Source: a virus. From it: DNA of 39,314 nucleotides. Shown piece by piece: positions 3,428-39,314 of this stretch. Position 1 is the stretch's first letter. Each line of letters starts with the position of its first letter. A program made the translations under genes and the position numbers. The stretch lies in IMG/VR virus record IMGVR_UViG_3300025712_000012, positions 1-39,314 of that record; one strand, 5' to 3'. Below the pieces are notes generated by a model. That model had not been told where the DNA came from. It searched no databases and was given only the letters and a program-made list of their open reading frames with translations.

Positions 3428-3470
3428 ATGTTTTCCTCTTTAAAATTCTAGCATAATTTGGGGTTTTAAT

Positions 3471-6400: not shown

Positions 6401-6566
6401 ATACGTCTTGATCTACTTCCTCAGGAATATCGTCTGCAACATCTTCTTGTAATACATCCTCGGCAGTAGCTAATGGAGTAATCTCTTTAGTTACTTCTTC
6501 TAAGTCTTGCTCAATACCAACCATTTGGTCTATGTCTTGATTGATAGATTGTTCTTGTGTAGACAT
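3471..6566 (-). CDS. Large internal virion protein (gp16-position, putative DNA-ejection protein)
   Basis: 1031 aa, acidic and Gln/Glu-rich at the N-terminus. The middle and C-terminal halves are mostly helical, with hydrophobic stretches near residues 380-420 (WLSTWINGLL region) and 670-690 (MTLGTTMMGGAAYYAL). It is the last large gene before the fibre, the place of T7 gp16, which forms part of the ejection channel. I see no transglycosylase motif in it; a separate transglycosylase-like gene lies at 17457-18029. The role is inferred from position, size and hydrophobic segments rather than from a recognised domain. It starts two bases after the stop of the 161-aa upstream gene. A second identical copy is at 34446-37541. 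Confidence 0.6.
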   Translation of the reverse strand: MSTQEQSINQDIDQMVGIEQDLEEVTKEITPLATAEDVLQEDVADDIPEEVDQDVLVPTGQPTFTDEEPTKVAGIIPKVIKKVTTQSEDFADLMAKRSKLPSSSDEYLIIPNATDDEVNAVLKSYGDTPVDPAAEGATVGAKATISPRFNVNQIEDSQGVKDFINVVGDVYLGEKKVISTKQIAEELSRARYTVYKDGNSFKQFKTQDEAYAYVREQGDNAVNFTVEGKAPYSSDYLARILDPNNPTIADPTEAYKMLMAQLDVTNKAEILARQIIDQGVNATDALRLEFDQTLALAGEISKAVDRRTADYGRTLRMFGELRSSGNLKEIDNFIAEHGGRSGTEERARQFLALPTTESKARTARAAFGMGAVKDIWLSTWINGLLSSPITHAKNIAGNAMFGAMQPVERAMMSIVGKVRNGVFGSDDAIRMSAVVDQAQGYFGSIVDAGRLAGKAFVKNQGMDEASKMELDKFARRNEFDVDFGDSTIGKATSDMLRLYGKFVTLPGRTLLAEDEFFKGVAYVGEFRFLTKQKAEVFYSARLKEGIDKETAKKLTSDYLAEIRTNPTDDILTASTERAKEMTFTKELTGTMADIQRGINSGKLSPILKMFFPFVRTPTNLVIEAGKRSPLQLINPGFYRTVAKGGVEADAAIAKMTLGTTMMGGAAYYALQGQLTGAGPTNRQLRKTLEATGWQPYSYVYNKSDLSEDQIKDFMDKTPVSVGEDKVYVSYQGLQPISTLIGVSATIAEYFTYNSYANTAEQTTAEELDKIVQAAGLGVYDFVGQLPMLQGYSEFTDILAGDPMSSAASLNNMLNKLGKKAADVAIGGSPLGVYSSGMATVERIMSPERSNVMRSEGSPEGGPISALGDGFDRAWNQYTSRSPFYNDELPEALDPLTGDIVTIGKGNWGEAFNPFKNSEGKVAEGYRALVSAGVPVYSPPRKLHGYQLSAEMYNEWIVIATAGGELEDAVIDAADMMYEDDDLGKVQRTLRRTMTTGYKEALIELKEFYPDLEMHLEDKDLESAVEGVYSYY

Positions 6567-6568
6567 AA

Positions 6569-7054
6569 TTATTTAGCCTTTTTCTTAATGATTTTCTTAA
6601 CGCCCTTTGCTACAACCTCTGTAACCGGTCCTACTTCACCAATAAGTTCTGCTGCTTGTTCTGGCCCTTCTTCATACTTCCATCCAGCGTCTTCCAACAT
6701 ACCTTTAATATCTTCTGAGGTAAATGGTATAGCCCCATATATTTCCTCAAATTGAGCCAGGTTACCTTTACCTTCTGGGTCAGGACTAGCCATGTTTAAT
6801 AGTCCACCAAGTAAGCCCACAATATCCATTGGTGTTCCAAGAGCTTGTACACCACCTTTAGCTGTAGCGCCAGCCATCTTCTTATAAGCATCTGGAGTAG
6901 CTTTTGTTACATCAGCTAATGGCTCTGTTACAGCAGCAGCGTACGTATCCATAAGGGATGGATCTTCTTTTGGAGAGACAACAATTGGATCAACCATAAT
7001 ACCTTTACGAATGTATGCATCGTCTATAAACAACTGTTCAATATCATCATTCAT
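6569..7054 (-). CDS. Small virion-module protein of unknown function
   Basis: 161 aa. It has an acidic N-terminus, a Gly/Ala-rich middle (GGVQALGTPMDIVGLLGGLL) that could be an amphipathic or membrane-active helix, and a very basic C-terminus ending KKIIKKKAK. Its start overlaps the 3' end of the 567-aa gene by eight bases, and its stop lies two bases before the 1031-aa gene, so the three are probably translated together. The position between gp15-like and gp16-like genes suggests an internal or ejected protein. No family recognised. Copy 2 is at 37544-38029. Confidence 0.55.
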   Translation of the reverse strand: MNDDIEQLFIDDAYIRKGIMVDPIVVSPKEDPSLMDTYAAAVTEPLADVTKATPDAYKKMAGATAKGGVQALGTPMDIVGLLGGLLNMASPDPEGKGNLAQFEEIYGAIPFTSEDIKGMLEDAGWKYEEGPEQAAELIGEVGPVTEVVAKGVKKIIKKKAK

Positions 7055-8750
7055 TTGGCATCTCCATTACAATCTGTCCTTCATAAATATCTTTTAGAGT
7101 GTTACGATTCTTCATTAATCGTTCATAGGTTCTTGGAGCTAAGTCCTTACCTTTATACTTAAGTGAAAGAATCTCTGCGTCAGTAAGTTCAGCAAAGGCT
7201 TCACCAGTAGTAAACTGATAGTCAGTTTTTTTAAGATGTCTTGATACAGTAGAGATATGTTTTGGTAAAGCTAATTCTTTGTATTTCTGAGCAGTCTTCT
7301 CTGCTATCTCTATCGCAGCTGTTCTTTGGTCGAACTCTTCGCCATTGCCTACAGCTCTACTTTGAGCTAGTGATAATTCAAATCTTGCATCAGCAATCAA
7401 TGTTCTTAGTGGATTGTCTTGATTCATTCTCATTACAGTCAAGTCGTCAATCCGGAGTCTGTTATTAATAATATCATTGCCTGCTTTCAATGTCTTAGTA
7501 ACTTGCAAGTATTGTTTTTTAAGATCAGCTGCTTGAAAGTAACTAATATCACCAGCGTAAGCCTTATTATCAATTGATCCATAATCCATCTTGCCAAGCT
7601 GTACTTGCAGTGATAAGTCAGAAAAGTTTTCATTCTGTATTAAGCTAGAAGCTTTTTCGTTGTTAATCTCTTTAAGCAATTCAACTGATAGTGGATAATT
7701 AATAGCTTTAAGTTCATTCTTAAACTCTTCCCCGCTATAAACTTGAGAGGTAAATTTATCATACAGGTCAATAAAGGTTTCTTGTTTAAGATTGTATTGA
7801 GCATCTCTTTCAGCTTTCATGAGAGTACCTTGCTGGTCAATCTTATCAGTAGCTATTTTAATAATCTTCTGTATATTATCTGGAGTATCTAATCCTCTTG
7901 CTGCTAGAATCATGCCCCACTCACCTCTTTCCCCGTTATAGAACTTAGAGATAGTTTTGCTTTCAATAAGGTGGTTAGCTAATTCGTTCTGTATACCTGA
8001 GTCTACCTCTGCATTAAACTTAGCTACATTGTCACTAAATGTCTTAGGATTCCTTCTAAATACCGCAAAGGAATTAACCTCCCTTTCCTTTAAGAAAGCA
8101 AGTTTAGATAAGGCATCTGAGTCAGTTCTTAATGTACTAGCCCAATATTGTTTAAAGAAGTTAAGTTGATTTTGTGACTTGACTTCATTCTCTGCCATGT
8201 TTCTTGCTTCTGCCGCATCTAATGCTTTCTTTACAGTAGCTGCTCCAATGGTTGCAGCGGATGCTCTAAAGTTAATAGATGACTCAGGATCAATCTGAGA
8301 CAATACATTGGCGTATCCATCTATATTCGCATTAACGTCAACAATAACTGAGTCAACATCAGTAACCATATTTGAATCAATACCTGAGTTTAACTCTTGA
8401 AGCTTTAAGGTAAAGTCATTTAGTAGATCCTGTCTTAATAATGTAGCTTGTGCTGCTGCTGCTGATGCACCAAATACGGTATCACTGTCTTGAATTAAGC
8501 TTTCTAAAGGTGTCCCACTGCCAATAGCATCTTGAATTTGCTGAAGTGAAATAGGGTTTTGTACTGCATACATCTTTCCCTCTCTTTCAGCTTTAGTCTT
8601 TAGTTCAGAAAAAGCAATGTCAGTTACTCGATCTAATCGCTTTTGCAGCGACTGAGATGCCTGAAAGCTCTCACGCACTGAAGCAAAATCAAGAGGTCTG
8701 GTATTCTCTAAACTTACTCCTCTGCTTCTGTATCTTGGGTCTTGTGCCAT
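7047..8750 (-). CDS. Internal virion protein (gp15-position)
   Basis: 567 aa, almost entirely predicted helical, charged, without signal peptide or obvious membrane segment. It follows the 160-aa gp14-like gene and precedes the gp16-position gene. In T7, gp14, gp15 and gp16 are the core proteins ejected to form the trans-envelope channel. Assignment rests on order, size and helical character; no catalytic motif is visible. The second copy (38022-39314) is cut by the window end. Confidence 0.6.
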   Translation of the reverse strand: MAQDPRYRSRGVSLENTRPLDFASVRESFQASQSLQKRLDRVTDIAFSELKTKAEREGKMYAVQNPISLQQIQDAIGSGTPLESLIQDSDTVFGASAAAAQATLLRQDLLNDFTLKLQELNSGIDSNMVTDVDSVIVDVNANIDGYANVLSQIDPESSINFRASAATIGAATVKKALDAAEARNMAENEVKSQNQLNFFKQYWASTLRTDSDALSKLAFLKEREVNSFAVFRRNPKTFSDNVAKFNAEVDSGIQNELANHLIESKTISKFYNGERGEWGMILAARGLDTPDNIQKIIKIATDKIDQQGTLMKAERDAQYNLKQETFIDLYDKFTSQVYSGEEFKNELKAINYPLSVELLKEINNEKASSLIQNENFSDLSLQVQLGKMDYGSIDNKAYAGDISYFQAADLKKQYLQVTKTLKAGNDIINNRLRIDDLTVMRMNQDNPLRTLIADARFELSLAQSRAVGNGEEFDQRTAAIEIAEKTAQKYKELALPKHISTVSRHLKKTDYQFTTGEAFAELTDAEILSLKYKGKDLAPRTYERLMKNRNTLKDIYEGQIVMEMPNE

Positions 8751-23495: not shown

Positions 23496-24101
23496 TTAGC
23501 CTTGCAACTCTTTCAATATGTCCCCAGGATTCTCACCACTTGCCAGCCTACGCTCGACTATGACCAAATCCTGCTCACTCTTCACACACTCAAACACACT
23601 AGCTAATAACTCATTGTGTAACTGATTTGATTGCTTAGCACTGACAGGCTTTGCTTCCTTCGCTATCTTATTGCTTTTGCTTATCCTTTTCTTCATTAGT
23701 TCCCCTTTGATTTCCCTGTTGTTGTATGGTTCGATTGGTGCGTTAGCTATTCGACTAGCGTCCTCATTGCTCAGACTGTCATCGTATATAATGCGTCTAG
23801 TTGCGCCCTTAATCATAGAATAATGACCGCTGACCTTTTTAACTATCCCTAACTTCTGTAAACGTTGTATCTGTCTTGATACACTCGGCGCAGTGATTCC
23901 CAAGTCGTTCCCTATCCTTGCCAATGACACATAAGTAAACCCCGCTTTGTTGCAATAGCTCGACAACACAACCAACACTCGATAGCTTGCTAATGTCATA
24001 CGTTTATTAATAACTGATAATGGCATGACGCTGAACTTCCGTTGGTCTGGTGCGGGTGTCTTCTCTTTAATCTTCGGCTTTTTTGGTAGGCTGTATTCCA
24101 T
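23496..24101 (-). CDS. Winged-helix DNA-binding regulator or replication-initiation-like protein
   Basis: 201 aa. Residues ~36-95 form a winged helix: 'MTLASYRVLVVLSSYCNKAG', then 'VSLARIGNDLGITAPSVSRQ' as the HTH and 'LQKLGIVKKV' leading into the wing. The C-terminal part is basic and then helical, perhaps for oligomer contacts. It resembles MarR-like or phage O/RepA-type N-terminal domains. It stands alone on the minus strand between the two rightward units. A TATAAT six bases before its ATG suggests leaderless expression, as for lambda cI from PRM. Repressor is my favoured role; initiator is the alternative. Confidence 0.7.
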   Translation of the reverse strand: MEYSLPKKPKIKEKTPAPDQRKFSVMPLSVINKRMTLASYRVLVVLSSYCNKAGFTYVSLARIGNDLGITAPSVSRQIQRLQKLGIVKKVSGHYSMIKGATRRIIYDDSLSNEDASRIANAPIEPYNNREIKGELMKKRISKSNKIAKEAKPVSAKQSNQLHNELLASVFECVKSEQDLVIVERRLASGENPGDILKELQG

Positions 24102-24129: not shown

Positions 24130-24159
24130 TTGCATTAATCGATATCTTTGTTATATACT
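24130..24159 (+). promoter_or_regulatory. Rightward promoter for the early operon
   Basis: TTGCAT (24130-24135), 18 bases, TATACT (24154-24159); a 16-base alternative uses TATATA at 24152. The start would be near 24166, exactly where the hairpin of the first repeated element begins. It diverges from the promoter of the winged-helix gene. Confidence 0.6.
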
Positions 24160-24165
24160 TATATC

Positions 24166-24210
24166 AACACGACGAAACGTGTTTTTCTTAACAACTATAT
24201 AAGGACTAAG
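24166..24210 (+). repeat. Repeated hairpin-RBS element, copy 1
   Basis: AACACG (24166-24171), loop ACGAAA, CGTGTT (24178-24183), a short T-run, then the shared block CTTAACAACTATATAAGGAC up to 24210. The hairpin would be the very 5' end of the mRNA. It precedes the gene at 24214. Confidence 0.75.
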
Positions 24211-24213
24211 ACA

Positions 24214-24531
24214 ATGCAAACAATAGACAGAATGATAAAGGTAAGACTGGAAGATGTGGGTTTAATCATGTATGAAGCAGATGGCACACCCTACGAGATG
24301 TCATCAATGGTGGGAGTTTATGAAGACGGTTTTGAAGATCGTGATTTTGACGCCCTATTCAACTGCTACTTAGATGAGAAATGTTATAGATGGTTTTCTG
24401 AGTCTGAGTACAGGGACATTCTGAACAAGCTATCAAATGCCTTTTTGTATCCGCTTGACGATGGCGAATTTATTTCCGAACTATCAGACAGTGGCATATT
24501 AATGAATATCAAACTTAGGGAGGTTGCATAA
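24214..24531 (+). CDS. Hypothetical early protein 1
   Basis: 106 aa from ATG 24214 (MQTIDRMIKVRLEDVGLIMY), chosen because the shared AAGGA ribosome site lies eight bases upstream. Acidic, with EDGFEDRDFDALFNCYLDEK in the middle and a helix-rich second half. No family recognised. First gene of the early operon, so a host-takeover or regulatory role is possible, but that is only position-based. The next gene follows after two bases. Confidence 0.7.
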   Translation: MQTIDRMIKVRLEDVGLIMYEADGTPYEMSSMVGVYEDGFEDRDFDALFNCYLDEKCYRWFSESEYRDILNKLSNAFLYPLDDGEFISELSDSGILMNIKLREVA

Positions 24532-24533
24532 TC

Positions 24534-24935
24534 ATGACTATAACCACAATCAAAAGAATTACGCCAGACATTGAAGCAAGCGTTATTAATCAATTCAAAG
24601 CATGGGCGCAGACAAAATCAGGACAAGATATACTGATGGAGTTCGACACGTGGCACGCTTTCGAGGTTGAGGGAGGAGCTTTTGTCGATGTCAATTTCTA
24701 TGTAGATGAAACTTTAAACCTCGATCTTTACCCGTGCAACACAACCAACTTTCGCGAGGATGGCAACACAACCACTATTTATTTGTCATCAGACCACACC
24801 AACCAAATTTCTTTGACTAGCGATGAAATTGAAAAGCTGTTGCCTAAATGGCTGATCGAATATTATAAGACCGAGCATGATTGGCTTAGAGATGACGCGC
24901 CAGTATTAGAAAATAGCATAACTGACGAGACCTAA
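24534..24935 (+). CDS. Hypothetical early protein 2
   Basis: 133 aa, acidic, alpha/beta in appearance: a helix (ASVINQFKAWAQTKSGQDIL), beta strands (EGGAFVDVNFYVDETLNLDL), and a C-terminal helix (LLPKWLIEYYKTEHDWL). SD GGGAGG lies about ten bases before the ATG. It is the only one of the first three early genes with no copy of the repeated leader. No family recognised. Confidence 0.7.
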   Translation: MTITTIKRITPDIEASVINQFKAWAQTKSGQDILMEFDTWHAFEVEGGAFVDVNFYVDETLNLDLYPCNTTNFREDGNTTTIYLSSDHTNQISLTSDEIEKLLPKWLIEYYKTEHDWLRDDAPVLENSITDET

Positions 24936-24996
24936 TTGGTCGAAACCAACGCGAGTTGGTCTTATGCAACATCTTAAAAACTATATAAGGACTAAG
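24936..24996 (+). repeat. Repeated hairpin-RBS element, copy 2
   Basis: ACCAAC (24945-24950) GCGA GTTGGT (24955-24960) is a six-pair stem with a GNRA tetraloop. TTGGT (24936-24940) can instead pair with ACCAA (24945-24949) around CGAA, so two hairpins exclude each other. Then GCAACA and the shared CTTAAAAACTATATAAGGAC block. Confidence 0.8.
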
Positions 24997-24999
24997 AAA

Positions 25000-25323
25000 A
25001 TGAGAAAAGTAACCGAGCAAATAACAGAAGCATTCTTAAATGGTCGTAAATTAACAGTTGGCAATTCTATGACTGATGGCAATTCGATATTTTTACACGG
25101 CAACAAAATAGCATGGCGCGATGAAGGCGAGTTATATATCTCCATGTGTGGTTGGGGTACACCTACAACACGCGAACGCCTTAACGGGTTATTACGTACT
25201 ATCAATGCAGATGTTCGTATTCACCAAAGAAACTATGAGCAATTGTTGGTTAATGATAAAACAAAGGTTCAAATTCCAATGATACAAAGCAACGCGAACG
25301 TGATCGTTCGAGTGGAGGTGTAA
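25000..25323 (+). CDS. Hypothetical early protein 3
   Basis: 107 aa from ATG 25000 (MRKVTEQITEAFLNGRKLTV), fixed by the shared AAGGA site. The sequence 'GNSMTDGNSIFLHGNKIAWR' then 'ELYISMCGWGTPTTRERLNG' suggests a compact alpha/beta fold. The layout resembles small proteins found on conjugative plasmids and phages, but I cannot name a family. The next gene starts two bases after its stop, with GGAGG at its end acting as SD. Confidence 0.7.
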   Translation: MRKVTEQITEAFLNGRKLTVGNSMTDGNSIFLHGNKIAWRDEGELYISMCGWGTPTTRERLNGLLRTINADVRIHQRNYEQLLVNDKTKVQIPMIQSNANVIVRVEV

Positions 25324-25325
25324 AC

Positions 25326-25757
25326 ATGAACATCAAGCAATTAGTCAATTATATGTATAAATGCGCGGAGATGAACTGCGACACATGGCAAGAGCCATAC
25401 AGGGACAAGTTCGAGGCTTGGGAACTGTCCCACGAATCAACATGGCTTGAAGACTATGAAGACATGCAAGAGGAATACGGCGTTACATGGTCGCAAATCA
25501 ACGAAGCAATCGACATTATCAACGCGGAAGCAACCAAGATGACAACGCAATACATAGTTGAAACCGACACCATCTGCGATGGTTGGGTTAATGCTTGGCA
25601 TACTGACGGCGAGCCGCAAACATTCCCGACCTACAAGCAAGCGGAGAAAGAACTGGAGGATTTCTTTGCAGACATTAGCGAAGCATACGAGGCGGAAGAC
25701 TTACCCGACGAATACAACCGCGAGGATTACCGCATAGTTGCACTGACGAGGGTTTAA
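25326..25757 (+). CDS. Hypothetical early protein 4
   Basis: 143 aa, very acidic and tryptophan-rich (YEDMQEEYGVTWSQINEAID; ETDTICDGWVNAWHTDGEPQ). The C-terminal half looks like a domain that reads 'YIVETD..CDGW.NAW..D' followed by a helix (YKQAEKELEDFFADISEAYE). High negative charge could mean DNA mimicry, a common way to block restriction or other DNA-binding host proteins; this is inference only. It uses more G+C-rich codons than the late genes. Confidence 0.7.
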   Translation: MNIKQLVNYMYKCAEMNCDTWQEPYRDKFEAWELSHESTWLEDYEDMQEEYGVTWSQINEAIDIINAEATKMTTQYIVETDTICDGWVNAWHTDGEPQTFPTYKQAEKELEDFFADISEAYEAEDLPDEYNREDYRIVALTRV

Positions 25758-25758
25758 T

Positions 25759-25813
25759 ACCCGAAACGCCCGCGAGGGTGTCTGCAACACTTTAATAACC
25801 ATATAGGAATTAA
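25759..25813 (+). repeat. Repeated hairpin-RBS element, copy 3
   Basis: ACGCCC (25766-25771) GCGA GGGTGT (25776-25781), a six-pair stem with the same GCGA tetraloop as copy 2. GGGT/ACCC (25750-25753 with 25759-25762) forms a second small hairpin over the upstream stop codon. Then TCTGCAACA and the shared block with AGGA. Confidence 0.8.
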
Positions 25814-25818
25814 TCAAA

Positions 25819-25989
25819 ATGAATATAAACAAAGAAAAGTTATTCGATATTTTAACTAAAAAGCTTAATAGAAAATGGTCAAAAAAAGACTTAATGGCGC
25901 TTTATTTGGAGGATACGTTTTCTAATAACAGACCGCGCTTATTTCATTTTATAAACGAAAACGAATACAAGCTAATAACAAAGGATTAG
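25819..25989 (+). CDS. Hypothetical early protein 5 (56 aa)
   Basis: 56 aa; ATG 25819, TAG 25987-25989. MNINKEKLFDILTKKLNRKW SKKDLMALYLED is helical and basic, followed by FHFINENEYKLITKD. The repeated leader element immediately upstream with its AGGA site supports translation. Base use is clearly AT-rich compared with the gene before it. Function unknown. Confidence 0.65.
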   Translation: MNINKEKLFDILTKKLNRKWSKKDLMALYLEDTFSNNRPRLFHFINENEYKLITKD

Positions 25990-25996
25990 TGATACC

Positions 25997-26067
25997 TTCT
26001 AGCGCCTCACGGGGTGCTAGGGGATTATCATTTTGATAGTCATATTAATAACTATATAAGGATTAAT
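25997..26067 (+). repeat. Repeated hairpin-RBS element, copy 4
   Basis: CTAGCGCC (25999-26006), loop TCACGG, GGTGCTAG (26013-26020): eight pairs with one G-T. A second hairpin at 26024-26040 (ATTATCA/TGATAGT) follows, then the shared TTAATAACTATATAAGGATT block. The stem sequence differs from other copies although the position is kept. Confidence 0.75.
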
Positions 26068-26070
26068 ACC

Positions 26071-26439
26071 ATGGAAGATCAATTTATCCAACTACAACTC
26101 GAGGACGCCTCGCCCGAGGTTAACGAAGCCTTACTACCTTATGACATTGTTATACGCGTAGACGATCAAGGCAAGCCTTCAAGCTTCACGCTCGAGCTTA
26201 ACCACGAACACCGCAACGACGAAACTGTTGTAGATTATTACGACAGCTTAAAGGGTGCGCCATCATCTGGAAAAGCACTGACAGCGCAAGAGGTAACTTC
26301 ATTTATTGAAATATCACCGCACGACAGCGCGCAACGCCTTGCAAAGTGTATAAACCAAGGTAAGGACTTGAAGCGCCTTATTAAAACTTATGAGCTTGTG
26401 GACGCTCCCACGTTCGAGAGGGTGTCTGCAACAATTTAA
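26071..26439 (+). CDS. Hypothetical early protein 6
   Basis: 122 aa from ATG 26071 (MEDQFIQLQLEDASPEVNEA), set by the shared AAGGA site. Acidic N-terminal half, then a region with KALTAQEVTSFIEISPHDSA and a helix (RLAKCINQGKDLKRLIKTYE). No family recognised. Its last codons (RVSATI and stop) are read from the hairpin part of repeat copy 5, so the repeat is both coding and a leader for the next gene. Confidence 0.7.
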   Translation: MEDQFIQLQLEDASPEVNEALLPYDIVIRVDDQGKPSSFTLELNHEHRNDETVVDYYDSLKGAPSSGKALTAQEVTSFIEISPHDSAQRLAKCINQGKDLKRLIKTYELVDAPTFERVSATI

Positions 26440-26457
26440 CAACCATATAGGAATTAA
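26401..26457 (+). repeat. Repeated hairpin-RBS element, copy 5 (overlaps upstream gene)
   Basis: GACGC-T-CC (26401-26408) can pair with GGGTGTC (26420-26426), one base bulged. The segment GTGTCTGCAACA and the shared ATATAGGAATTAA block are nearly identical to copy 3. The first 39 bases lie inside the coding region of the 122-aa gene. Confidence 0.75.
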
Positions 26458-26460
26458 AAA

Positions 26461-26619
26461 ATGGATAACATTAAAATCGTGTTAGAACGTAGCACGTTCA
26501 AAGACCTGTACGACTGGCAACAGCTTTGCACCACTGCCAACGTAGATCAAGACGTTCAAACCATCGTCATCAACTGCGCACCAAGCGACATAGGCGCGCG
26601 GAAGGATGTCGAGCAATGA
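26461..26619 (+). CDS. Hypothetical early protein 7 (52 aa)
   Basis: 52 aa; ATG 26461, TGA 26617-26619. MDNIKIVLERSTFKDLYDWQ then QDVQTIVINCAPSDIGARKD. An alpha/beta mini-protein, not recognised. It follows repeat copy 5, and its stop overlaps the recombinase ATG (ATGA), so it is probably translated and coupled to the recombinase. Confidence 0.65.
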   Translation: MDNIKIVLERSTFKDLYDWQQLCTTANVDQDVQTIVINCAPSDIGARKDVEQ

Positions 26620-27305
26620 AATATATCACCTATCTAAGAATAAGCACCAACGAAACCAAGCAAGTCTATGGAATCGACGCTCAACGTGCCACAGTAATGG
26701 CGCATATTAAGGCGAACGATGGCGAGTTGGTAGCTGAGTTCATCGACCACGAAAGTGGACGCAAGACTTCCATCGAAGACCGCCCCCAACTGCATGATGC
26801 TATGGCATTGGTTAAGTCGACGCCTGACTGTAAGTTATTACTAGCTAAGACTGACAGGGTCGCCCGTGATCTGCATTTCATTAGCGGACTACTTAAGGAC
26901 AACGTGCCGTTGATCGTTGCGGGTCATGAACATATGACGAAGCTCGAATGGCACATGCACGCCATGATTGCCGAACATGAGGCCGACATGATAAGCCAAC
27001 GAACCAAGCTCGCACTCGAGCAAGCCAAGGCGCGCGGGGTTATCCTAGGCGCACCACGCGACCAGATACAACGCATTAGTAAACTGGGAGGTATTGCAAC
27101 GCATAACAAGTCGAAGCAGTACCGCGAAAAGATCATGCCATTAATCAACCAACTACTAGATGACCCTCAATACTTAAGGCGAGGCAATAAACACACGCCA
27201 CACCTTGAGAAGATGGCGGACAGGTTGCACGAATTAGGCATGCGGTCTGCTCAAAATAAGCGGATTACCAAATCCACCATTTACGCACTTTTGAATAGGA
27301 AATAG
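26616..27305 (+). CDS. Serine recombinase (resolvase/invertase family)
   Basis: 229 aa from ATG 26616. The catalytic domain shows 'ITYLRIST' with nucleophile Ser10 and Arg8, 'KTDRVARDLHF' with Arg81 and Arg84, and the long E-helix 'EHEADMISQRTKLALEQAKA'. A C-terminal region (residues ~150-229) contains a basic HTH-like segment ending RITKSTIYALLNRK. The size fits small resolvase/invertases rather than large serine integrases. It could act in inversion, resolution or integration. No recombination site was identified. It is cotranscribed with the recombination genes YqaJ and ERF. Confidence 0.88.
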   Translation: MKYITYLRISTNETKQVYGIDAQRATVMAHIKANDGELVAEFIDHESGRKTSIEDRPQLHDAMALVKSTPDCKLLLAKTDRVARDLHFISGLLKDNVPLIVAGHEHMTKLEWHMHAMIAEHEADMISQRTKLALEQAKARGVILGAPRDQIQRISKLGGIATHNKSKQYREKIMPLINQLLDDPQYLRRGNKHTPHLEKMADRLHELGMRSAQNKRITKSTIYALLNRK

Positions 27306-28325: not shown

Positions 28326-28334
28326 GGAATCTAT

Positions 28335-28736
28335 ATGGAAACTAATACCATAGCAAAAGCATTCTTGGCGGCGCAAAAAGCCTTTGCCCCGGCATTGAAG
28401 ACATCAACTAACCCACACTTCAGAAGCAAGTACGTTGCTTTAGATGGGTGTATCGAAGCAGTCATTGACGCACTACATACCAATGGCTTATCTATGATTC
28501 AAAAGACACACGACTGTGACACAGGAATCAAGATTGAAACTATCCTGTTGCATGAATCAGGTGAAACTATGAGTGGTGGTATTCTGTACGTGCCTGCAAA
28601 TAAGCATGACGCGCAAGGATATGGCTCAGCATTGACCTATGCCAGACGTTACTCTTTAATGACAACAGCAGGCATCGCACCAGAAGATGACGATGGCAAC
28701 GCTGCGGTTAAGGCAGAGCAGCCAAAAAAGGCATAA
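28335..28736 (+). CDS. erf: ERF-family single-strand annealing protein (0-frame product)
   Basis: 133 aa in the zero frame. 'NPHFRSKYVALDGCIEAVID' (26-45) and 'QGYGSALTYARRYSLMTTAG' (94-113), then IAPEDDDGN, are diagnostic of ERF. ERF proteins form rings on ssDNA and anneal complementary strands. The zero frame stops six bases after an A_AAA_AAG heptamer (28724-28730). The -1 frame continues for 83 codons that look coding, so the full product is probably about 215 aa, nearer the usual ERF length. See the next entry. Confidence 0.88.
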   Translation: METNTIAKAFLAAQKAFAPALKTSTNPHFRSKYVALDGCIEAVIDALHTNGLSMIQKTHDCDTGIKIETILLHESGETMSGGILYVPANKHDAQGYGSALTYARRYSLMTTAGIAPEDDDGNAAVKAEQPKKA

Positions 28737-31856: not shown

Positions 31857-32519
31857 TTAACTCCATACTGCAACAGCCATAGTTGTTCCTTGAGCTGGTG
31901 CAGAAAGTACAGTTGATTGTATTGTATGGGTCTGTGTTGTTGATGTATCTAAAGAAGCTCCTGTTTGCCCTGTCAATCCTCCAGCAATTCGATTATCATA
32001 ATTTTCAGTAACTCCTGACCAAGTATGAGCATATAAATCTCCAGTTGTTCTAACAGCAATTATAGAAGAGCCACTACTAATTGATGGAGTAGTTATACTT
32101 GTAGTTATTGAAGTTCCCCCAACTGCATTAGTATATACTGGTGTTGCTGATAGATAGTTTTCAATAGTATATACACCTATTCCACAACGGAGTTGAGCAA
32201 CTACAAAACTAACACTAACTGATGTTGTAGATGATCCGATAACCGCATACCAAATTGCGCCGACAGTTCCTCCGTTGAAGTTTTGGGAAAATTCTGCAGC
32301 TCGTGTAGCAGAAACTCCGCCTATTGTTACACTAGAAATCGCAGTATTAGAAGGATCTTCAGAACTAATAGTAATAGCAACTAGACCAGCAGGAATAGTT
32401 GCGGTCGTAAAATTGTAAGTTGATATGGCTGAACCTATAGCATATGTGTTTATGAATGTTGATGTAGCTATGTTACCTTGTTGAGCCTGACCTAAAAACA
32501 TTAACTGTATCCCGCTCAT
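31857..32519 (-). CDS. Tail-tip protein of form B
   Basis: 220 aa. It begins MSGIQLMFLGQAQQGNIATS, a start I recognise from many marine phage tail proteins, and is Ser/Thr/Gly/Ile-rich with beta-strand periodicity throughout, suggesting a single beta-sandwich domain. Its ATG overlaps the fibre B stop (ATGA), so the two form one unit. In form A this position is taken by an unrelated LamG-like protein. Probably receptor-binding or fibre-associated. Confidence 0.6.
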   Translation of the reverse strand: MSGIQLMFLGQAQQGNIATSTFINTYAIGSAISTYNFTTATIPAGLVAITISSEDPSNTAISSVTIGGVSATRAAEFSQNFNGGTVGAIWYAVIGSSTTSVSVSFVVAQLRCGIGVYTIENYLSATPVYTNAVGGTSITTSITTPSISSGSSIIAVRTTGDLYAHTWSGVTENYDNRIAGGLTGQTGASLDTSTTQTHTIQSTVLSAPAQGTTMAVAVWS

Positions 32520-34402
32520 GACAGATTACCTGATATAGCACATACAGTACCACTAATAAATAATATGGTTGCTAGACCTCTTGTTTCCAAAGTAACTGAA
32601 GCTACATTTGTATTTGTTCCAGCAATATATGCTGTAGTAATTGAACAAGTTATAGTGACATTACCTGCTGTGTTGTTAAATATTGTGATTGCATCGCCTT
32701 CAGAAAAAGTAGAATTAGGAATAGTAATAGAACCACCTGAACCTACTTGAACATATTTACCTACATCAGAGGTAGTTAATGAATAAGATGTTGTTTTTGT
32801 ACCAACTGCTGGTATGTTTGGATAACCTACTGTACCTGTAGCTCCAATATCAGAATCTACTAAAACATTAGAACCACCATTTTGAAGTGTTCCTGTAAAG
32901 TTAGCAGTCGAAGCATCATATTTAGCAGTATCTGCATCATAGGCTTGTACTGTGACACCAATATCTGCATCCACAACAATGGTAGCATCGTATGCCTGTA
33001 CATCTGAGCCTATAGCTAATCCAAGGTTAGTCCTAGAGGTTCCTGCGTCAGCTACGTCAGATAAGTTGTTTGCTGAGGTTAAGAAACCTGCTGAAGATAT
33101 AGCGGTTACTTGCCAGGCTGATCCATTGTAAATGCGTGTCTCATCTGCTGTCGTATTAAAGTACCAGTCACCAGCAGTAACAGGATTACCATTGTTATCT
33201 AAGGTTGGATCAGATGCTTGTGCGCCAAGGTAGAACTCATCAATGCTATCCTTAATTGCTTGTGCATCACTTGCTGAAGTCGCTGCATTAGTAGCTGAAG
33301 TAGACGCGGCTGAAGCTGAGGATGATGCTGCACTTGCTGAACTAGCAGCGTTAGTAGCAGAGGTACTGGCATTGCTTGCCTGAGTGGTTGCTATGCCTGC
33401 TTGTGTTGTTGCAGTAGAAGCTGATGTCGATGCGGATGATGCACTTGATGCTGCATTGGTTTCGCTAGTGGCTGCATTAGTTTCTGATGTTGCCGCATTG
33501 GTTTCGCTAGTGGCTGCGTTACTTTCAGATGTACTCGCTGAACTTGCACTACTTGAAGCACTAGACTCAGAAGCTGCTGCGTTACTTGCACTTGTTGAAG
33601 CTTCACTAGCTTTGGTTGTTGCTGTACTAGCAGAAGTCGCTGCATTAGTTTCTGATGTAGCTGCGTTAGTTTCTGATGTAGATGCTGCCGCTGCACTAGC
33701 TGCTGCCGCTGCTTCACTTGCCGCTGCACTAGCTGCATCAACTAATAGATCCCATTTAGCTGCATCGGTATTGGTGAATATAGGTTGTGAACCAGAGGAT
33801 GTATGCGCTGTATTACAGAGGTAAACATTGTTGTTACTGGTATCTTTAACTAAGTCACGTTTGTTATAGGTTGTTCCTGCTGCCCAGTCACCTCGGTTAT
33901 CACCAATGATCTCACCAATAACTGGATCCCCGTTAGCATCAAACGCTAAGGTTTTGTTTGCCCGAACAGTGTTGATAGGCAATGTCATATTGACTGTAGT
34001 TGGATCAGTGTTAGGTGCGCGTAGTGATCGGTTAGATTGTTCTAAGTTTTGTTGGGTAAAGATGGTTAGACTATCAAACTCATCGTTTAATGCTTGAGCA
34101 AATAAAGGGCCACCAGTAGTAAAGTCTGTTGATCTTTCAATGGCTCTATCGCCAACAATAGTAATACGATCATCAGCGTCTGGTGTAGTAGGTACATTCA
34201 CACCAACAACAATAGTTACGCTACCTGTACCAGTACCACTAATAGATACTGTATAATCAGTAGTAAGTGTAAGTTCAGTCTCATTGAAGTATACGGCAAT
34301 GTCTGTTTCAGACAATACCTCGAACGCAAAAGCATAAGGACCTGTACCAGCAGATCCTGTATAGACTATGCGCCTAGTTGTGTTTGATATATCAATTGCC
34401 AT
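32516..34402 (-). CDS. Tail fibre protein, form B
   Basis: 628 aa. Residues 1-344 are the same as in fibre A (gp17-type domain and Ala/Ser/Thr/Asn shaft). From residue 345 the shaft continues with a different set of repeats (SASAASSSASAAS), then the GDWYFNT/RIYNGS module with scattered substitutions, a common NLSDVADAGTSRTNLGLAIG segment, and a new tip with IVVDADIGVTVQAYDADTAK and a beta-rich end. The tip differs from fibre A both in sequence and in length. It is coupled to the 220-aa tip protein. Confidence 0.9.
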   Translation of the reverse strand: MAIDISNTTRRIVYTGSAGTGPYAFAFEVLSETDIAVYFNETELTLTTDYTVSISGTGTGSVTIVVGVNVPTTPDADDRITIVGDRAIERSTDFTTGGPLFAQALNDEFDSLTIFTQQNLEQSNRSLRAPNTDPTTVNMTLPINTVRANKTLAFDANGDPVIGEIIGDNRGDWAAGTTYNKRDLVKDTSNNNVYLCNTAHTSSGSQPIFTNTDAAKWDLLVDAASAAASEAAAAASAAAASTSETNAATSETNAATSASTATTKASEASTSASNAAASESSASSSASSASTSESNAATSETNAATSETNAATSETNAASSASSASTSASTATTQAGIATTQASNASTSATNAASSASAASSSASAASTSATNAATSASDAQAIKDSIDEFYLGAQASDPTLDNNGNPVTAGDWYFNTTADETRIYNGSAWQVTAISSAGFLTSANNLSDVADAGTSRTNLGLAIGSDVQAYDATIVVDADIGVTVQAYDADTAKYDASTANFTGTLQNGGSNVLVDSDIGATGTVGYPNIPAVGTKTTSYSLTTSDVGKYVQVGSGGSITIPNSTFSEGDAITIFNNTAGNVTITCSITTAYIAGTNTNVASVTLETRGLATILFISGTVCAISGNLS

Positions 34403-34445
34403 ATGTTTTCCTCTTTAAAATTCTAGCATAATTTGGGGTTTTAAT

Positions 34446-37400
34446 CTAGTAATAACTGTATACTCCCTCAACAGCACTCTCTAAATCTTTATCTTCTAGA
34501 TGCATCTCTAGGTCAGGATAAAACTCTTTCAATTCTATCAATGCCTCTTTGTATCCTGTGGTCATCGTTCTGCGTAGAGTTCTTTGAACTTTGCCTAGGT
34601 CATCATCTTCATACATCATATCTGCTGCATCAATTACTGCATCCTCTAGCTCTCCACCGGCAGTAGCAATAACAATCCATTCGTTATACATCTCAGCTGA
34701 TAGTTGATAGCCGTGTAATTTCCTTGGAGGACTATATACTGGAACACCAGCACTAACTAAGGCTCGGTATCCTTCAGCAACTTTACCTTCTGAGTTTTTA
34801 AATGGATTAAATGCTTCTCCCCAATTGCCTTTTCCTATAGTAACTATATCACCAGTTAATGGATCTAATGCCTCTGGAAGCTCATCATTATAAAATGGAG
34901 ACCTAGATGTATACTGATTCCATGCTCTATCGAATCCATCACCTAATGCAGATATTGGCCCACCCTCTGGACTGCCCTCTGACCTCATAACATTAGATCG
35001 TTCTGGAGACATGATTCTTTCTACTGTAGCCATACCACTGCTATATACGCCTAATGGAGATCCACCAATAGCAACATCAGCAGCCTTCTTCCCTAACTTA
35101 TTTAACATGTTATTTAAACTAGCAGCACTACTCATAGGGTCGCCAGCAAGAATGTCAGTAAACTCGGAATATCCTTGTAGCATAGGGAGCTGACCAACAA
35201 AGTCATAAACACCCAAACCTGCTGCTTGCACTATTTTATCGAGTTCTTCTGCTGTAGTTTGTTCTGCGGTATTAGCATATGAGTTGTATGTAAAGTATTC
35301 AGCTATAGTGGCTGATACACCGATTAATGTGGAGATAGGTTGCAAGCCTTGATACGAGACATAGACCTTATCCTCTCCGACAGATACTGGTGTTTTGTCC
35401 ATGAAGTCTTTAATCTGATCTTCGCTTAAATCACTTTTGTTGTATACATAAGAGTATGGTTGCCATCCGGTTGCTTCTAATGTTTTTCGTAGCTGTCTAT
35501 TAGTTGGACCTGCGCCAGTTAGTTGTCCTTGAAGAGCATAATAGGCAGCACCTCCCATCATAGTCGTACCTAATGTCATCTTCGCTATAGCTGCATCTGC
35601 TTCCACGCCACCTTTAGCTACCGTTCTATAAAACCCTGGGTTAATCAACTGTAATGGACTTCTCTTCCCAGCCTCGATAACAAGATTTGTTGGAGTACGA
35701 ACAAAGGGAAAGAACATCTTAAGTATTGGAGATAACTTGCCGCTATTTATACCACGCTGTATGTCAGCCATAGTGCCTGTTAGTTCTTTAGTAAACGTCA
35801 TCTCTTTAGCTCTTTCTGTAGAAGCTGTTAGGATGTCATCTGTTGGGTTAGTTCTTATCTCAGCTAAATAATCTGAAGTAAGTTTCTTAGCAGTCTCTTT
35901 GTCAATACCTTCCTTTAATCTTGCACTATAAAATACCTCAGCTTTTTGTTTTGTTAGGAATCTAAATTCTCCAACATAAGCCACTCCTTTAAAGAACTCG
36001 TCCTCAGCAAGTAATGTTCTGCCCGGCAAAGTAACAAACTTTCCGTACAGCCTTAACATATCACTTGTTGCTTTTCCTATGGTTGAATCTCCAAAGTCAA
36101 CATCAAACTCATTGCGTCTTGCAAACTTATCTAATTCCATTTTAGATGCTTCATCCATGCCTTGATTCTTGACGAATGCTTTTCCAGCTAATCTTCCAGC
36201 ATCTACAATGGAGCCAAAGTATCCTTGAGCTTGATCGACTACAGCGCTCATCCTAATCGCATCATCACTACCAAATACACCATTACGTACCTTTCCAACA
36301 ATAGACATCATAGCTCGCTCAACTGGTTGCATTGCGCCAAACATAGCGTTACCTGCTATATTCTTAGCATGAGTTATTGGGCTAGATAATAATCCATTAA
36401 TCCATGTAGAAAGCCAAATATCCTTAACAGCACCCATACCAAATGCCGCTCTTGCAGTACGTGCTTTTGATTCAGTTGTGGGTAATGCTAAGAATTGTCT
36501 TGCTCTTTCTTCAGTGCCAGACCTTCCTCCATGCTCAGCAATGAAGTTATCAATCTCTTTCAAGTTTCCAGAGCTTCTTAATTCACCAAACATACGCAAT
36601 GTTCTACCATAGTCAGCAGTCCTTCTGTCTACTGCTTTAGATATTTCACCAGCTAATGCTAATGTCTGGTCAAACTCAAGTCTTAATGCATCTGTTGCAT
36701 TTACACCTTGGTCAATAATCTGTCTGGCTAATATCTCTGCTTTATTGGTAACATCTAATTGCGCCATCAACATCTTGTATGCTTCTGTTGGATCTGCAAT
36801 CGTAGGGTTGTTAGGGTCTAGTATTCTAGCTAGATAGTCACTAGAGTATGGAGCCTTGCCTTCTACAGTAAAGTTCACTGCATTATCCCCTTGCTCTCTA
36901 ACATAGGCATAAGCTTCATCTTGTGTCTTAAATTGCTTAAATGAATTGCCGTCTTTATATACTGTATACCTAGCTCTGCTTAATTCCTCAGCTATTTGCT
37001 TAGTAGAGATTACTTTCTTTTCACCAAGATAAACATCACCAACGACATTAATAAAGTCTTTAACGCCCTGTGAGTCTTCAATCTGATTAACATTAAATCT
37101 AGGTGAGATTGTAGCTTTTGCTCCAACGGTAGCGCCTTCTGCTGCTGGGTCAACAGGCGTATCTCCATAGCTCTTTAATACGGCATTTACCTCATCGTCA
37201 GTAGCATTTGGGATAATTAAGTATTCATCAGAACTTGATGGTAATTTGCTACGCTTTGCCATTAAGTCAGCGAAATCTTCGCTTTGAGTCGTAACCTTTT
37301 TAATAACTTTAGGAATTATGCCTGCAACCTTGGTTGGTTCTTCGTCAGTAAATGTTGGTTGACCTGTTGGTACTAATACGTCTTGATCTACTTCCTCAGG

Positions 37401-37541
37401 AATATCGTCTGCAACATCTTCTTGTAATACATCCTCGGCAGTAGCTAATGGAGTAATCTCTTTAGTTACTTCTTCTAAGTCTTGCTCAATACCAACCATT
37501 TGGTCTATGTCTTGATTGATAGATTGTTCTTGTGTAGACAT
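34446..37541 (-). CDS. Large internal virion protein, second copy
   Basis: 1031 aa, identical to the protein at 3471-6566; see that entry for features. The absence of any difference over three kilobases shows that the two passes are the same or very recently diverged genomes. Confidence 0.6.
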   Translation of the reverse strand: MSTQEQSINQDIDQMVGIEQDLEEVTKEITPLATAEDVLQEDVADDIPEEVDQDVLVPTGQPTFTDEEPTKVAGIIPKVIKKVTTQSEDFADLMAKRSKLPSSSDEYLIIPNATDDEVNAVLKSYGDTPVDPAAEGATVGAKATISPRFNVNQIEDSQGVKDFINVVGDVYLGEKKVISTKQIAEELSRARYTVYKDGNSFKQFKTQDEAYAYVREQGDNAVNFTVEGKAPYSSDYLARILDPNNPTIADPTEAYKMLMAQLDVTNKAEILARQIIDQGVNATDALRLEFDQTLALAGEISKAVDRRTADYGRTLRMFGELRSSGNLKEIDNFIAEHGGRSGTEERARQFLALPTTESKARTARAAFGMGAVKDIWLSTWINGLLSSPITHAKNIAGNAMFGAMQPVERAMMSIVGKVRNGVFGSDDAIRMSAVVDQAQGYFGSIVDAGRLAGKAFVKNQGMDEASKMELDKFARRNEFDVDFGDSTIGKATSDMLRLYGKFVTLPGRTLLAEDEFFKGVAYVGEFRFLTKQKAEVFYSARLKEGIDKETAKKLTSDYLAEIRTNPTDDILTASTERAKEMTFTKELTGTMADIQRGINSGKLSPILKMFFPFVRTPTNLVIEAGKRSPLQLINPGFYRTVAKGGVEADAAIAKMTLGTTMMGGAAYYALQGQLTGAGPTNRQLRKTLEATGWQPYSYVYNKSDLSEDQIKDFMDKTPVSVGEDKVYVSYQGLQPISTLIGVSATIAEYFTYNSYANTAEQTTAEELDKIVQAAGLGVYDFVGQLPMLQGYSEFTDILAGDPMSSAASLNNMLNKLGKKAADVAIGGSPLGVYSSGMATVERIMSPERSNVMRSEGSPEGGPISALGDGFDRAWNQYTSRSPFYNDELPEALDPLTGDIVTIGKGNWGEAFNPFKNSEGKVAEGYRALVSAGVPVYSPPRKLHGYQLSAEMYNEWIVIATAGGELEDAVIDAADMMYEDDDLGKVQRTLRRTMTTGYKEALIELKEFYPDLEMHLEDKDLESAVEGVYSYY

Positions 37542-37543
37542 AA

Positions 37544-38029
37544 TTATTTAGCCTTTTTCTTAATGATTTTCTTAACGCCCTTTGCTACAACCTCTGTAAC
37601 CGGTCCTACTTCACCAATAAGTTCTGCTGCTTGTTCTGGCCCTTCTTCATACTTCCATCCAGCGTCTTCCAACATACCTTTAATATCTTCTGAGGTAAAT
37701 GGTATAGCCCCATATATTTCCTCAAATTGAGCCAGGTTACCTTTACCTTCTGGGTCAGGACTAGCCATGTTTAATAGTCCACCAAGTAAGCCCACAATAT
37801 CCATTGGTGTTCCAAGAGCTTGTACACCACCTTTAGCTGTAGCGCCAGCCATCTTCTTATAAGCATCTGGAGTAGCTTTTGTTACATCAGCTAATGGCTC
37901 TGTTACAGCAGCAGCGTACGTATCCATAAGGGATGGATCTTCTTTTGGAGAGACAACAATTGGATCAACCATAATACCTTTACGAATGTATGCATCGTCT
38001 ATAAACAACTGTTCAATATCATCATTCAT
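37544..38029 (-). CDS. Small virion-module protein, second copy
   Basis: 161 aa, identical to 6569-7054, with the same overlaps on each side. Confidence 0.55.
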   Translation of the reverse strand: MNDDIEQLFIDDAYIRKGIMVDPIVVSPKEDPSLMDTYAAAVTEPLADVTKATPDAYKKMAGATAKGGVQALGTPMDIVGLLGGLLNMASPDPEGKGNLAQFEEIYGAIPFTSEDIKGMLEDAGWKYEEGPEQAAELIGEVGPVTEVVAKGVKKIIKKKAK

Positions 38030-39314
38030 TTGGCATCTCCATTACAATCTGTCCTTCATAAATATCTTTTAGAGTGTTACGATTCTTCATTAATCGTTCA
38101 TAGGTTCTTGGAGCTAAGTCCTTACCTTTATACTTAAGTGAAAGAATCTCTGCGTCAGTAAGTTCAGCAAAGGCTTCACCAGTAGTAAACTGATAGTCAG
38201 TTTTTTTAAGATGTCTTGATACAGTAGAGATATGTTTTGGTAAAGCTAATTCTTTGTATTTCTGAGCAGTCTTCTCTGCTATCTCTATCGCAGCTGTTCT
38301 TTGGTCGAACTCTTCGCCATTGCCTACAGCTCTACTTTGAGCTAGTGATAATTCAAATCTTGCATCAGCAATCAATGTTCTTAGTGGATTGTCTTGATTC
38401 ATTCTCATTACAGTCAAGTCGTCAATCCGGAGTCTGTTATTAATAATATCATTGCCTGCTTTCAATGTCTTAGTAACTTGCAAGTATTGTTTTTTAAGAT
38501 CAGCTGCTTGAAAGTAACTAATATCACCAGCGTAAGCCTTATTATCAATTGATCCATAATCCATCTTGCCAAGCTGTACTTGCAGTGATAAGTCAGAAAA
38601 GTTTTCATTCTGTATTAAGCTAGAAGCTTTTTCGTTGTTAATCTCTTTAAGCAATTCAACTGATAGTGGATAATTAATAGCTTTAAGTTCATTCTTAAAC
38701 TCTTCCCCGCTATAAACTTGAGAGGTAAATTTATCATACAGGTCAATAAAGGTTTCTTGTTTAAGATTGTATTGAGCATCTCTTTCAGCTTTCATGAGAG
38801 TACCTTGCTGGTCAATCTTATCAGTAGCTATTTTAATAATCTTCTGTATATTATCTGGAGTATCTAATCCTCTTGCTGCTAGAATCATGCCCCACTCACC
38901 TCTTTCCCCGTTATAGAACTTAGAGATAGTTTTGCTTTCAATAAGGTGGTTAGCTAATTCGTTCTGTATACCTGAGTCTACCTCTGCATTAAACTTAGCT
39001 ACATTGTCACTAAATGTCTTAGGATTCCTTCTAAATACCGCAAAGGAATTAACCTCCCTTTCCTTTAAGAAAGCAAGTTTAGATAAGGCATCTGAGTCAG
39101 TTCTTAATGTACTAGCCCAATATTGTTTAAAGAAGTTAAGTTGATTTTGTGACTTGACTTCATTCTCTGCCATGTTTCTTGCTTCTGCCGCATCTAATGC
39201 TTTCTTTACAGTAGCTGCTCCAATGGTTGCAGCGGATGCTCTAAAGTTAATAGATGACTCAGGATCAATCTGAGACAATACATTGGCGTATCCATCTATA
39301 TTCGCATTAACGTC
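38022..39314 (-). CDS. Internal virion protein (gp15-position), second copy, partial
   Basis: The last 431 codons of the 567-aa protein at 7047-8750, identical where present. The N-terminal 137 residues lie beyond the window; an internal ATG at 39278 is not the true start. Confidence 0.6.
   Translation of the reverse strand, partial: DVNANIDGYANVLSQIDPESSINFRASAATIGAATVKKALDAAEARNMAENEVKSQNQLNFFKQYWASTLRTDSDALSKLAFLKEREVNSFAVFRRNPKTFSDNVAKFNAEVDSGIQNELANHLIESKTISKFYNGERGEWGMILAARGLDTPDNIQKIIKIATDKIDQQGTLMKAERDAQYNLKQETFIDLYDKFTSQVYSGEEFKNELKAINYPLSVELLKEINNEKASSLIQNENFSDLSLQVQLGKMDYGSIDNKAYAGDISYFQAADLKKQYLQVTKTLKAGNDIINNRLRIDDLTVMRMNQDNPLRTLIADARFELSLAQSRAVGNGEEFDQRTAAIEIAEKTAQKYKELALPKHISTVSRHLKKTDYQFTTGEAFAELTDAEILSLKYKGKDLAPRTYERLMKNRNTLKDIYEGQIVMEMPNE

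Follow-up and report, generated by a model that had tools for sequence, protein, structure and literature searches.

In phage T7, RNase III sites lie between the early genes, and the polycistron is cut there just upstream of the ribosome sites. Clustered hammerhead ribozymes that flank single genes or short gene blocks were described in prophages in 2011; cutting into single-gene mRNAs was proposed for them, and cleavage of three tandem arrays was demonstrated (Perreault 2011, PMC3088659). Cleavage of tandem phage hammerheads has been observed in vitro and, for one of them, in E. coli; in the lytic haloviruses HF1 and HF2 a hammerhead (HHphage) stands 13 nt upstream of the start codon of an early gene (PMC3088659). 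Hammerhead cleavage leaves a 2',3'-cyclic phosphate on the upstream product and a 5'-OH on the downstream product, and the role of hammerheads in bacteria and phages is described as an open question (PMC6155905). Our literature search, which covered few subscription journals, found no later survey of phage hammerheads. In T4-type phages, promoter-early stem-loop (PeSL) cassettes are described as repeated structured intergenic elements before early genes, associated with gene shuffling (Arbiol 2010 and Comeau 2014, as cited in PMC4503421). Here, we analyzed the IMG/VR virus record IMGVR_UViG_3300025712_000012, all 39,314 bases of which form the window referred to below. Between positions 24166 and 26457, in a region whose gene content and position suggest that it is early, five genes are each preceded by an upstream element and a common leader with a ribosome site (copies 1 to 5). 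Two of the five elements are hammerhead ribozymes in structure, and a third is a different, two-hairpin RNA. The closest named relative of this virus is the cultured OM43 phage MEP301, a Methylophilales phage (L001 in our set of relatives), which matched 51% of an 8-kb query at 95.6%.

The shared leader and two hammerhead ribozymes

In order to define the repeated element, we first consider the part immediately before each gene. The motif AACYATATARGRAYTAA was present in exactly five copies, all on the + strand, at 24193, 24979, 25797, 26050 and 26441, and with up to two mismatches allowed the rest of the record contained no further copy; the reversed control likewise gave none. The full constant leader, TTAANAACYATATARGRAYTAA, was found in five exact copies (24188..24209, 24974..24995, 25792..25813, 26045..26066 and 26436..26457, + strand), with AAGGA/AGGA as the ribosome site and an ATG 3–5 nt past each copy. 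The near-constant block before five early genes reported in the initial annotation is this leader. A decayed sixth leader with three mismatches (28329..28353, + strand) precedes an ERF-like gene, and three relatives (L014, L015 and L016) have a better leader copy than that of the window in front of the same gene. In MEP301, the leader precedes gp03 and also gp01, in the latter case running across the two ends of the linear record. The leader is the part common to all five copies, and the elements upstream of it differ in kind. The five hairpins had been read by the initial annotation as one element that keeps its place, which did not hold: they resolved into hammerheads (copies 2 and 3), a start hairpin (copy 1), a two-hairpin RNA (copy 4) and a remnant (copy 5). 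Its GCGA tetraloops in copies 2 and 3 and the compensating change of ACCAAC/GTTGGT to ACGCCC/GGGTGT were both present. The hairpin followed by GCAACA was real too, but the hairpin is only stem III of a larger structure, and most of GCAACA belongs to the 3' strand of stem I.

Copy 2 (24916..24967) and copy 3 (25737..25788), both on the + strand, have the layout of a type I hammerhead ribozyme. Copy 2 reads GCATAA-CTGACGA-GACC TAATT GGTC-GAAA-CCAAC GCGA GTTGG-TC/TTATGC, and copy 3 reads GTTGCA-CTGACGA-GGGT TTAAT ACCC-GAAA-CGCCC GCGA GGGTG-TC/TGCAAC, where the slash marks the predicted cut, between 24961 and 24962 and between 25782 and 25783, respectively. In both, the core elements CUGANGA, GAAA and UC are exact, and the stems have 6, 4 and 5 bp plus the A15.1-U16.1 pair. 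Three helices are arranged around the core and the structure is open at stem I; the minimum-energy and centroid folds from ViennaRNA were both the hammerhead, with minimum free energy (MFE) z-scores of -3.5 for copy 2 and -2.6 for copy 3. A strict hammerhead descriptor matched these two copies in the window, whereas 300 dinucleotide shuffles of it gave no match, and no hammerhead core was found in copies 1, 4 and 5. At the gathering threshold, Rfam gave no match in the window; below it, the family RF00163 matched copy 2 with 29.8 bits (E 1.8e-4 and 3.8e-7; gathering score 34), and the relative L031 gave a match of 36.3 bits, above the gathering score.

The fold was strongly supported by comparison. 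In 11 close relatives every cell of the hammerhead alignment paired, and 12 of the 16 pairs were changed on both sides, with covariation in all three stems; when the partners were slid by 1–3 columns as a control, pairing was 27–44%. For an unbiased test in IMG/VR, we used a pattern that fixed only the core letters and the spacing, leaving 13 pairs unconstrained. At least 131 distinct viral matches were obtained, at least 126 of them with 11 or more of the 13 unconstrained pairs and at least 119 with all 13. Applied to 257 Gb of prokaryote genomes, this pattern yielded 79 distinct matches, six with at least 11 pairs and the rest spread as by chance. Viral contigs thus carry the core pattern far more often than cellular genomes do, and the architecture is overwhelmingly viral, bearing in mind that the viral and prokaryote collections differ in size. 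Among the rare cellular hits, same-spacing hammerheads just upstream of start codons were seen in contigs of Flavobacteriales metagenome-assembled genomes (L192, L223 and L241), and these are possibly cellular, possibly prophage.

Features outside the search pattern were also conserved. Among the matches listed, the base before stem I was an unpaired A in 141 of 142, the base after it was A in 133 of 142, and loop II was mostly U-N-A-N-U in the same 142 examples. A tertiary contact between loop II and stem I is known from fast-cleaving hammerheads, and the flanking A's and loop II would fit such a contact. Core, fold and covariation identify copies 2 and 3 as complete hammerhead ribozymes of type I, for which cleavage is predicted.

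Position relative to genes was equally regular. A start codon lay within 60 nt downstream in 95% of the 196 hammerheads with context among the matches listed (median 26), compared to 43% for positions drawn at random from these contigs. In about half of the hammerheads with context, a long upstream frame ended inside the ribozyme, with its stop codon in the catalytic CUGANGA itself in 34 cases. Both upstream genes of the window stop within stem-loop II, open reading frame (ORF) 24534-24935 in that of copy 2 and ORF 25326-25757 in that of copy 3. Many contigs carried several hammerheads, up to six, often with a common leader specific to the contig. In six of them (L120, L119, L151, L048, L053 and L137), 4–6 hammerheads were found within a few kilobases, nearly all before a gene and followed by a common leader particular to the contig, e.g. 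AAAAGTCAGGTGCAGACTATAACAGGC in L120. MEP301 itself has a hammerhead between gp02 and gp03 (702-753) that is unannotated, and ribozymes are not mentioned in the MEP301 paper.

The other upstream elements: copies 4, 1 and 5

Copy 4 (25987..26041, + strand) is a two-hairpin motif (DH), composed of UAGUG-N-UAMCU, hairpin P1, GG, and hairpin P2 with an AUU loop; it begins on the TAG stop of ORF 25819-25989. No Rfam family matched copy 4 in the window up to E 10, and among the DH relatives Rfam gave a single chance microRNA match (L266, E 0.4, 23.7 bits against a gathering score of 80.5). Our own DH covariance model scored copy 4 at 64.8 bits (E 1e-8), copy 4 being among the sequences of the model. 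In 14 DH relatives, 98.1% of the cells were paired and 8 pairs were changed on both sides. We then scanned IMG/VR with patterns in which the P1 base, the 5' strand of P2 and parts of the 5' segment were set, and the remainder of P1 and the 3' strand of P2 were left free. Among the matches listed, 35 had P1, and of these 33 had 6-7 of the 7 P2 pairs and 34 had a start codon within 60 nt; of the 31 without P1, 2 had 6-7 P2 pairs and 5 had a start codon. In 44 DH examples from the matches listed, kept only if P1 and P2 were largely paired, pairing reached 99.0% in P1 (shuffled mean 65.1) and 98.4% in P2 (shuffled 84.8). Because these examples were selected for pairing, the weight lies on changes on both sides: 8 of the 9 P1 pairs were changed in this way, in 133 cells compared to 45.7 in shuffled sets, and RNAalifold reported such changes for 14 of the 19 pairs of the motif.

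The conserved UAG of DH was the exact stop codon of the upstream frame in 28 of 43 cases, the start codon mostly followed 17-35 nt after P2, and some contigs had two or three DH copies. No DH was found in the related stretch of the complete genome MW202753. In one contig, L154, the P2 loops of two copies on the minus strand (1819-1900 and 2349-2429) hold inserted small hairpin-like repeats, ACGCTATGCRTT, which suggests that this loop tolerates insertions. Weaker DH-like elements with GGGGCTRANNTTGGCC after P1 were seen in three contigs fetched by the hammerhead pattern (L058 at 6661, L122 at 7157 and L143 at 6884), and are perhaps a second subtype. Two other readings of copy 4 were considered and rejected. 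As an intrinsic terminator it trips a loose scan in the window, though the tail of its relatives is N-UUADCAUU with no U run. As a three-strand switch, in which the 5' strand of P2 pairs either with an upstream segment or with the 3' strand of P2, it looked plausible in 14 sequences, where both pairings seemed kept; with 44 sequences, pairing at the one variable position of this alternative was only weakly above chance (64% against 50%), and P2 was the better helix. DH may function in processing, bind a protein or act as a ribozyme.

Copy 1 is a simple hairpin, AACACG-ACGAAA-CGTGTT (24166..24183, + strand), which folds alone (z -1.7), has no hammerhead core, and is placed at the expected 5' end of the early transcript. 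A predicted early promoter, TTGCAT, 18 nt, TATACT (24130..24159, + strand), would start transcription near 24166; it was read from the sequence, is unlisted by the consensus scan, and is the same in MEP301 (34690-34730). The relative L011 has a hairpin of other sequence, ACACGGCTTGCCGTGC, in the same place as copy 1 (L011 5833), so that the sequence differs and the place is kept; a 5'-terminal hairpin at the early transcription start may itself be conserved. Copy 5 (26410..26433, + strand) is a 3' remnant of a copy-3-type hammerhead, with which it shares a 48-nt repeat of 90% identity. Only the 3' strand of stem I, UC and a stem III that contains wobble pairs are retained, and copy 5 is expected to be inactive because the CUGANGA and GAAA of the core are missing. 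In agreement with this, the descriptor search gave no hammerhead in copy 5, and the MFE z-score was -0.7. The remnant is fused into the 3' end of ORF 26071-26439, which enters the 3' half of the copy-3-type hammerhead and terminates in the leader, as fits a recombination scar.

Gene exchange and proposed processing of the early transcript

Comparison with relatives revealed sharp breakpoints at the edges of the elements. Against L008 and L011, identity was at chance upstream of copy 2 and near 100% from the first base of stem I. At copy 3 the reverse was seen: about 100% identity to L001, L008 and L011 fell to chance in the leader. The genes behind the elements also changed partners. The gene for the MEDQF protein (ORF 26071-26439) has DH upstream in the window and a hammerhead upstream in L011; for a 52-aa gene, the upstream element is a hammerhead in MEP301 and L008, DH in L029 and, in the window, the remnant; and the same hammerhead stands before different genes in different phages. 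These comparisons suggest that the elements also act as recombination linkers between non-homologous neighbouring genes. DH occupies the hammerhead slot, lies similarly close to the start codon and precedes gene families that are elsewhere preceded by hammerheads; it could represent a class of RNA-processing element not described before, perhaps even a novel self-cleaving ribozyme, that phages use interchangeably with hammerheads at gene boundaries, though we regard this as doubtful. An association of DH with hammerheads beyond the near family was not supported (1 of 28 contigs with DH compared to 2 of 148 control contigs, p 0.41). DH in the hammerhead slot offers a specific candidate for an alternative to the hammerhead, be it a processing device or a ribozyme.

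The best explanation, which we consider probable, is that the early polycistron is cut by its own hammerheads into messages that begin with the common leader, and that the elements provide homology for gene swaps. From the structures, positions and breakpoints described above we infer cleavage, its products and an effect on expression along the following lines. The early region would form one transcription unit starting near 24166, and its RNA would cut itself after 24961 and after 25782 through the type I hammerheads. Each downstream message would then carry a 5'-OH and an unstructured leader of 36-38 nt with a ribosome site, much like the promoter-proximal message, and each upstream message would keep stems II and III at its end with a 2',3'-cyclic phosphate. 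At the slot of the MEDQF gene a different two-hairpin RNA would take the place of the hammerhead, and the slot of the last gene would have a hammerhead remnant only. Leader and structured element together would be the stretch of homology where early genes are swapped.

Several points weigh against this explanation. Cleavage of copies 2 and 3 is predicted from their structure, and a single transcript across the region is assumed. Copy 2 scores under the gathering score of RF00163, and copy 3 was not reported by Rfam at E up to 10. With hammerheads in just two of the five copies, the feature common to all five cannot be the cut, and is instead the leader. Since the stop codons lie in stem-loop II, ribosomes ending the upstream gene may moreover unfold the ribozyme.

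The breakpoints could also be taken to mean that the elements are mainly linkers at the DNA level, boundaries for the exchange of small early genes at which ribozyme activity is incidental or lost. They fall exactly at the element edges, and across phages a gene family is found behind different elements and the same hammerhead before different genes, as this proposal would have it. A DNA linker has no need of base pairing, however, and the stems change on both sides with pairing and catalytic core kept; moreover, the stems of the copies differ within one genome, which is poor for recombination. We therefore consider it unlikely. The suggestion of the initial annotation that one phage or host factor recognizes the hairpins amounts to processing by a shared protein or host RNase, e.g. 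RNase III, as at the T7 early sites. Through its 5' segment, copy 4 can indeed adopt a long imperfect hairpin with about 19 pairs, and near relatives largely preserve this alternative pairing, but in the larger set pairing of the segment was only weakly above chance at its single variable position (64% against 50%). Copies 2 and 3 have a full catalytic core of their own, for which such a factor is unneeded, and the five hairpins have no common sequence or shape that one protein could read; this makes the proposal very unlikely.

Hairpins before shuffled early genes would equally be expected if every copy were a terminator plus promoter, so that each gene had a transcript of its own in the manner of the T4 PeSL cassettes, and two terminator-like calls were obtained, at copy 1 (24166-24183) and copy 4 (25996-26023). 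Yet the sole promoter-like site, a weak one, overlaps leader 1, with none at copies 2-5, and the shuffle mean was 7.3. A promoter in every copy was thus ruled out, with fewer promoter-like sites in the scan than in shuffles. Given that the copy 4 hairpin has no real U run in relatives, and that the hammerhead structure would be left unexplained, we find this arrangement scarcely credible. Self-cutting of the early transcript at exchangeable elements remains our preferred explanation, and it can be tested in infection: the hammerheads stand directly before ribosome sites, and the family includes the cultured MEP301, which grows on Methylophilales bacterium FZCC2181.

Genomic setting and comparison with known systems

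The remaining early frames follow the same layout, with ORF 24214-24531 after leader copy 1, ORF 25000-25323 after leader copy 2 (PHROG 554, function unknown in PHROGs), ORF 25819-25989 after leader copy 3, ORF 26071-26439 after leader copy 4, and ORF 26461-26619 after leader copy 5. A divergent gene on the minus strand (23496-24101), with weak similarity to replication initiators or helix-turn-helix proteins, adjoins the element region. Downstream, small unknown genes are followed by a serine recombinase of the DNA-invertase type (26616-27305), a RecE/YqaJ-like exonuclease and the ERF-like gene. The end of the record (33100-39314) repeats its start (about 2100-8339) at an offset of 30,975 with 100% identity over about 6 kb, and the 2 kb preceding this terminal repeat differ between the two ends; the record seems to circle its genome more than once and to include part of a tail-fibre-like gene in two versions, of 583 aa (1676-3427) and 628 aa (32516-34402).

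The initial annotation had proposed a mobile or duplicated RNA-processing cassette and knew of no described equivalent. The covariance-model search of relatives that it put forward was run and supports the structure, and covarying structured RNAs do stand at recombination boundaries; the five copies, however, are not one structure. Equivalents are described as well: clusters of hammerheads flanking phage genes, for which processing into single-gene mRNAs was already proposed in 2011 (PMC3088659), and, as far as they are cited in PMC4503421, the T4-type stem-loop cassettes. What is new here is the anatomy of the window hammerheads, the exchangeable elements, whose edges coincide with breakpoints, and the DH motif, for which no match in Rfam was found.

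Compared to RF00163 (Hammerhead_1), the core, the type I topology and the GUC cleavage triplet are alike; the present hammerheads differ in a uniform open stem I of 6 bp with an A on both sides and in the U-N-A-N-U loop II, and score near or below the gathering cut-off. Like the T7 RNase III sites, they would cut a polycistron at gene boundaries, with the difference that in copies 2 and 3 the RNA itself is predicted to make the cut. The gene shuffling of the PeSL cassettes is seen here too, in the edge breakpoints and changed neighbours. In contrast to those cassettes, copies 2-5 have no promoter and ribozymes stand in place of terminators; and unlike the T4-type phages, this virus has a genome of about 31-35 kb and T7-like tail genes. 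As in HHphage, a hammerhead lies just upstream of an early gene start codon, but HHphage is a variant hammerhead at one early gene in a high-salt setting, whereas the core is canonical here, with two hammerheads plus a remnant. Finally, relative to the prophage clusters of Perreault 2011, the present hammerheads lie in the early region of an OM43-phage relative and hold stop codons within the ribozyme, one leader serves all the genes, and the hammerhead is replaceable by another RNA motif at the same gene.

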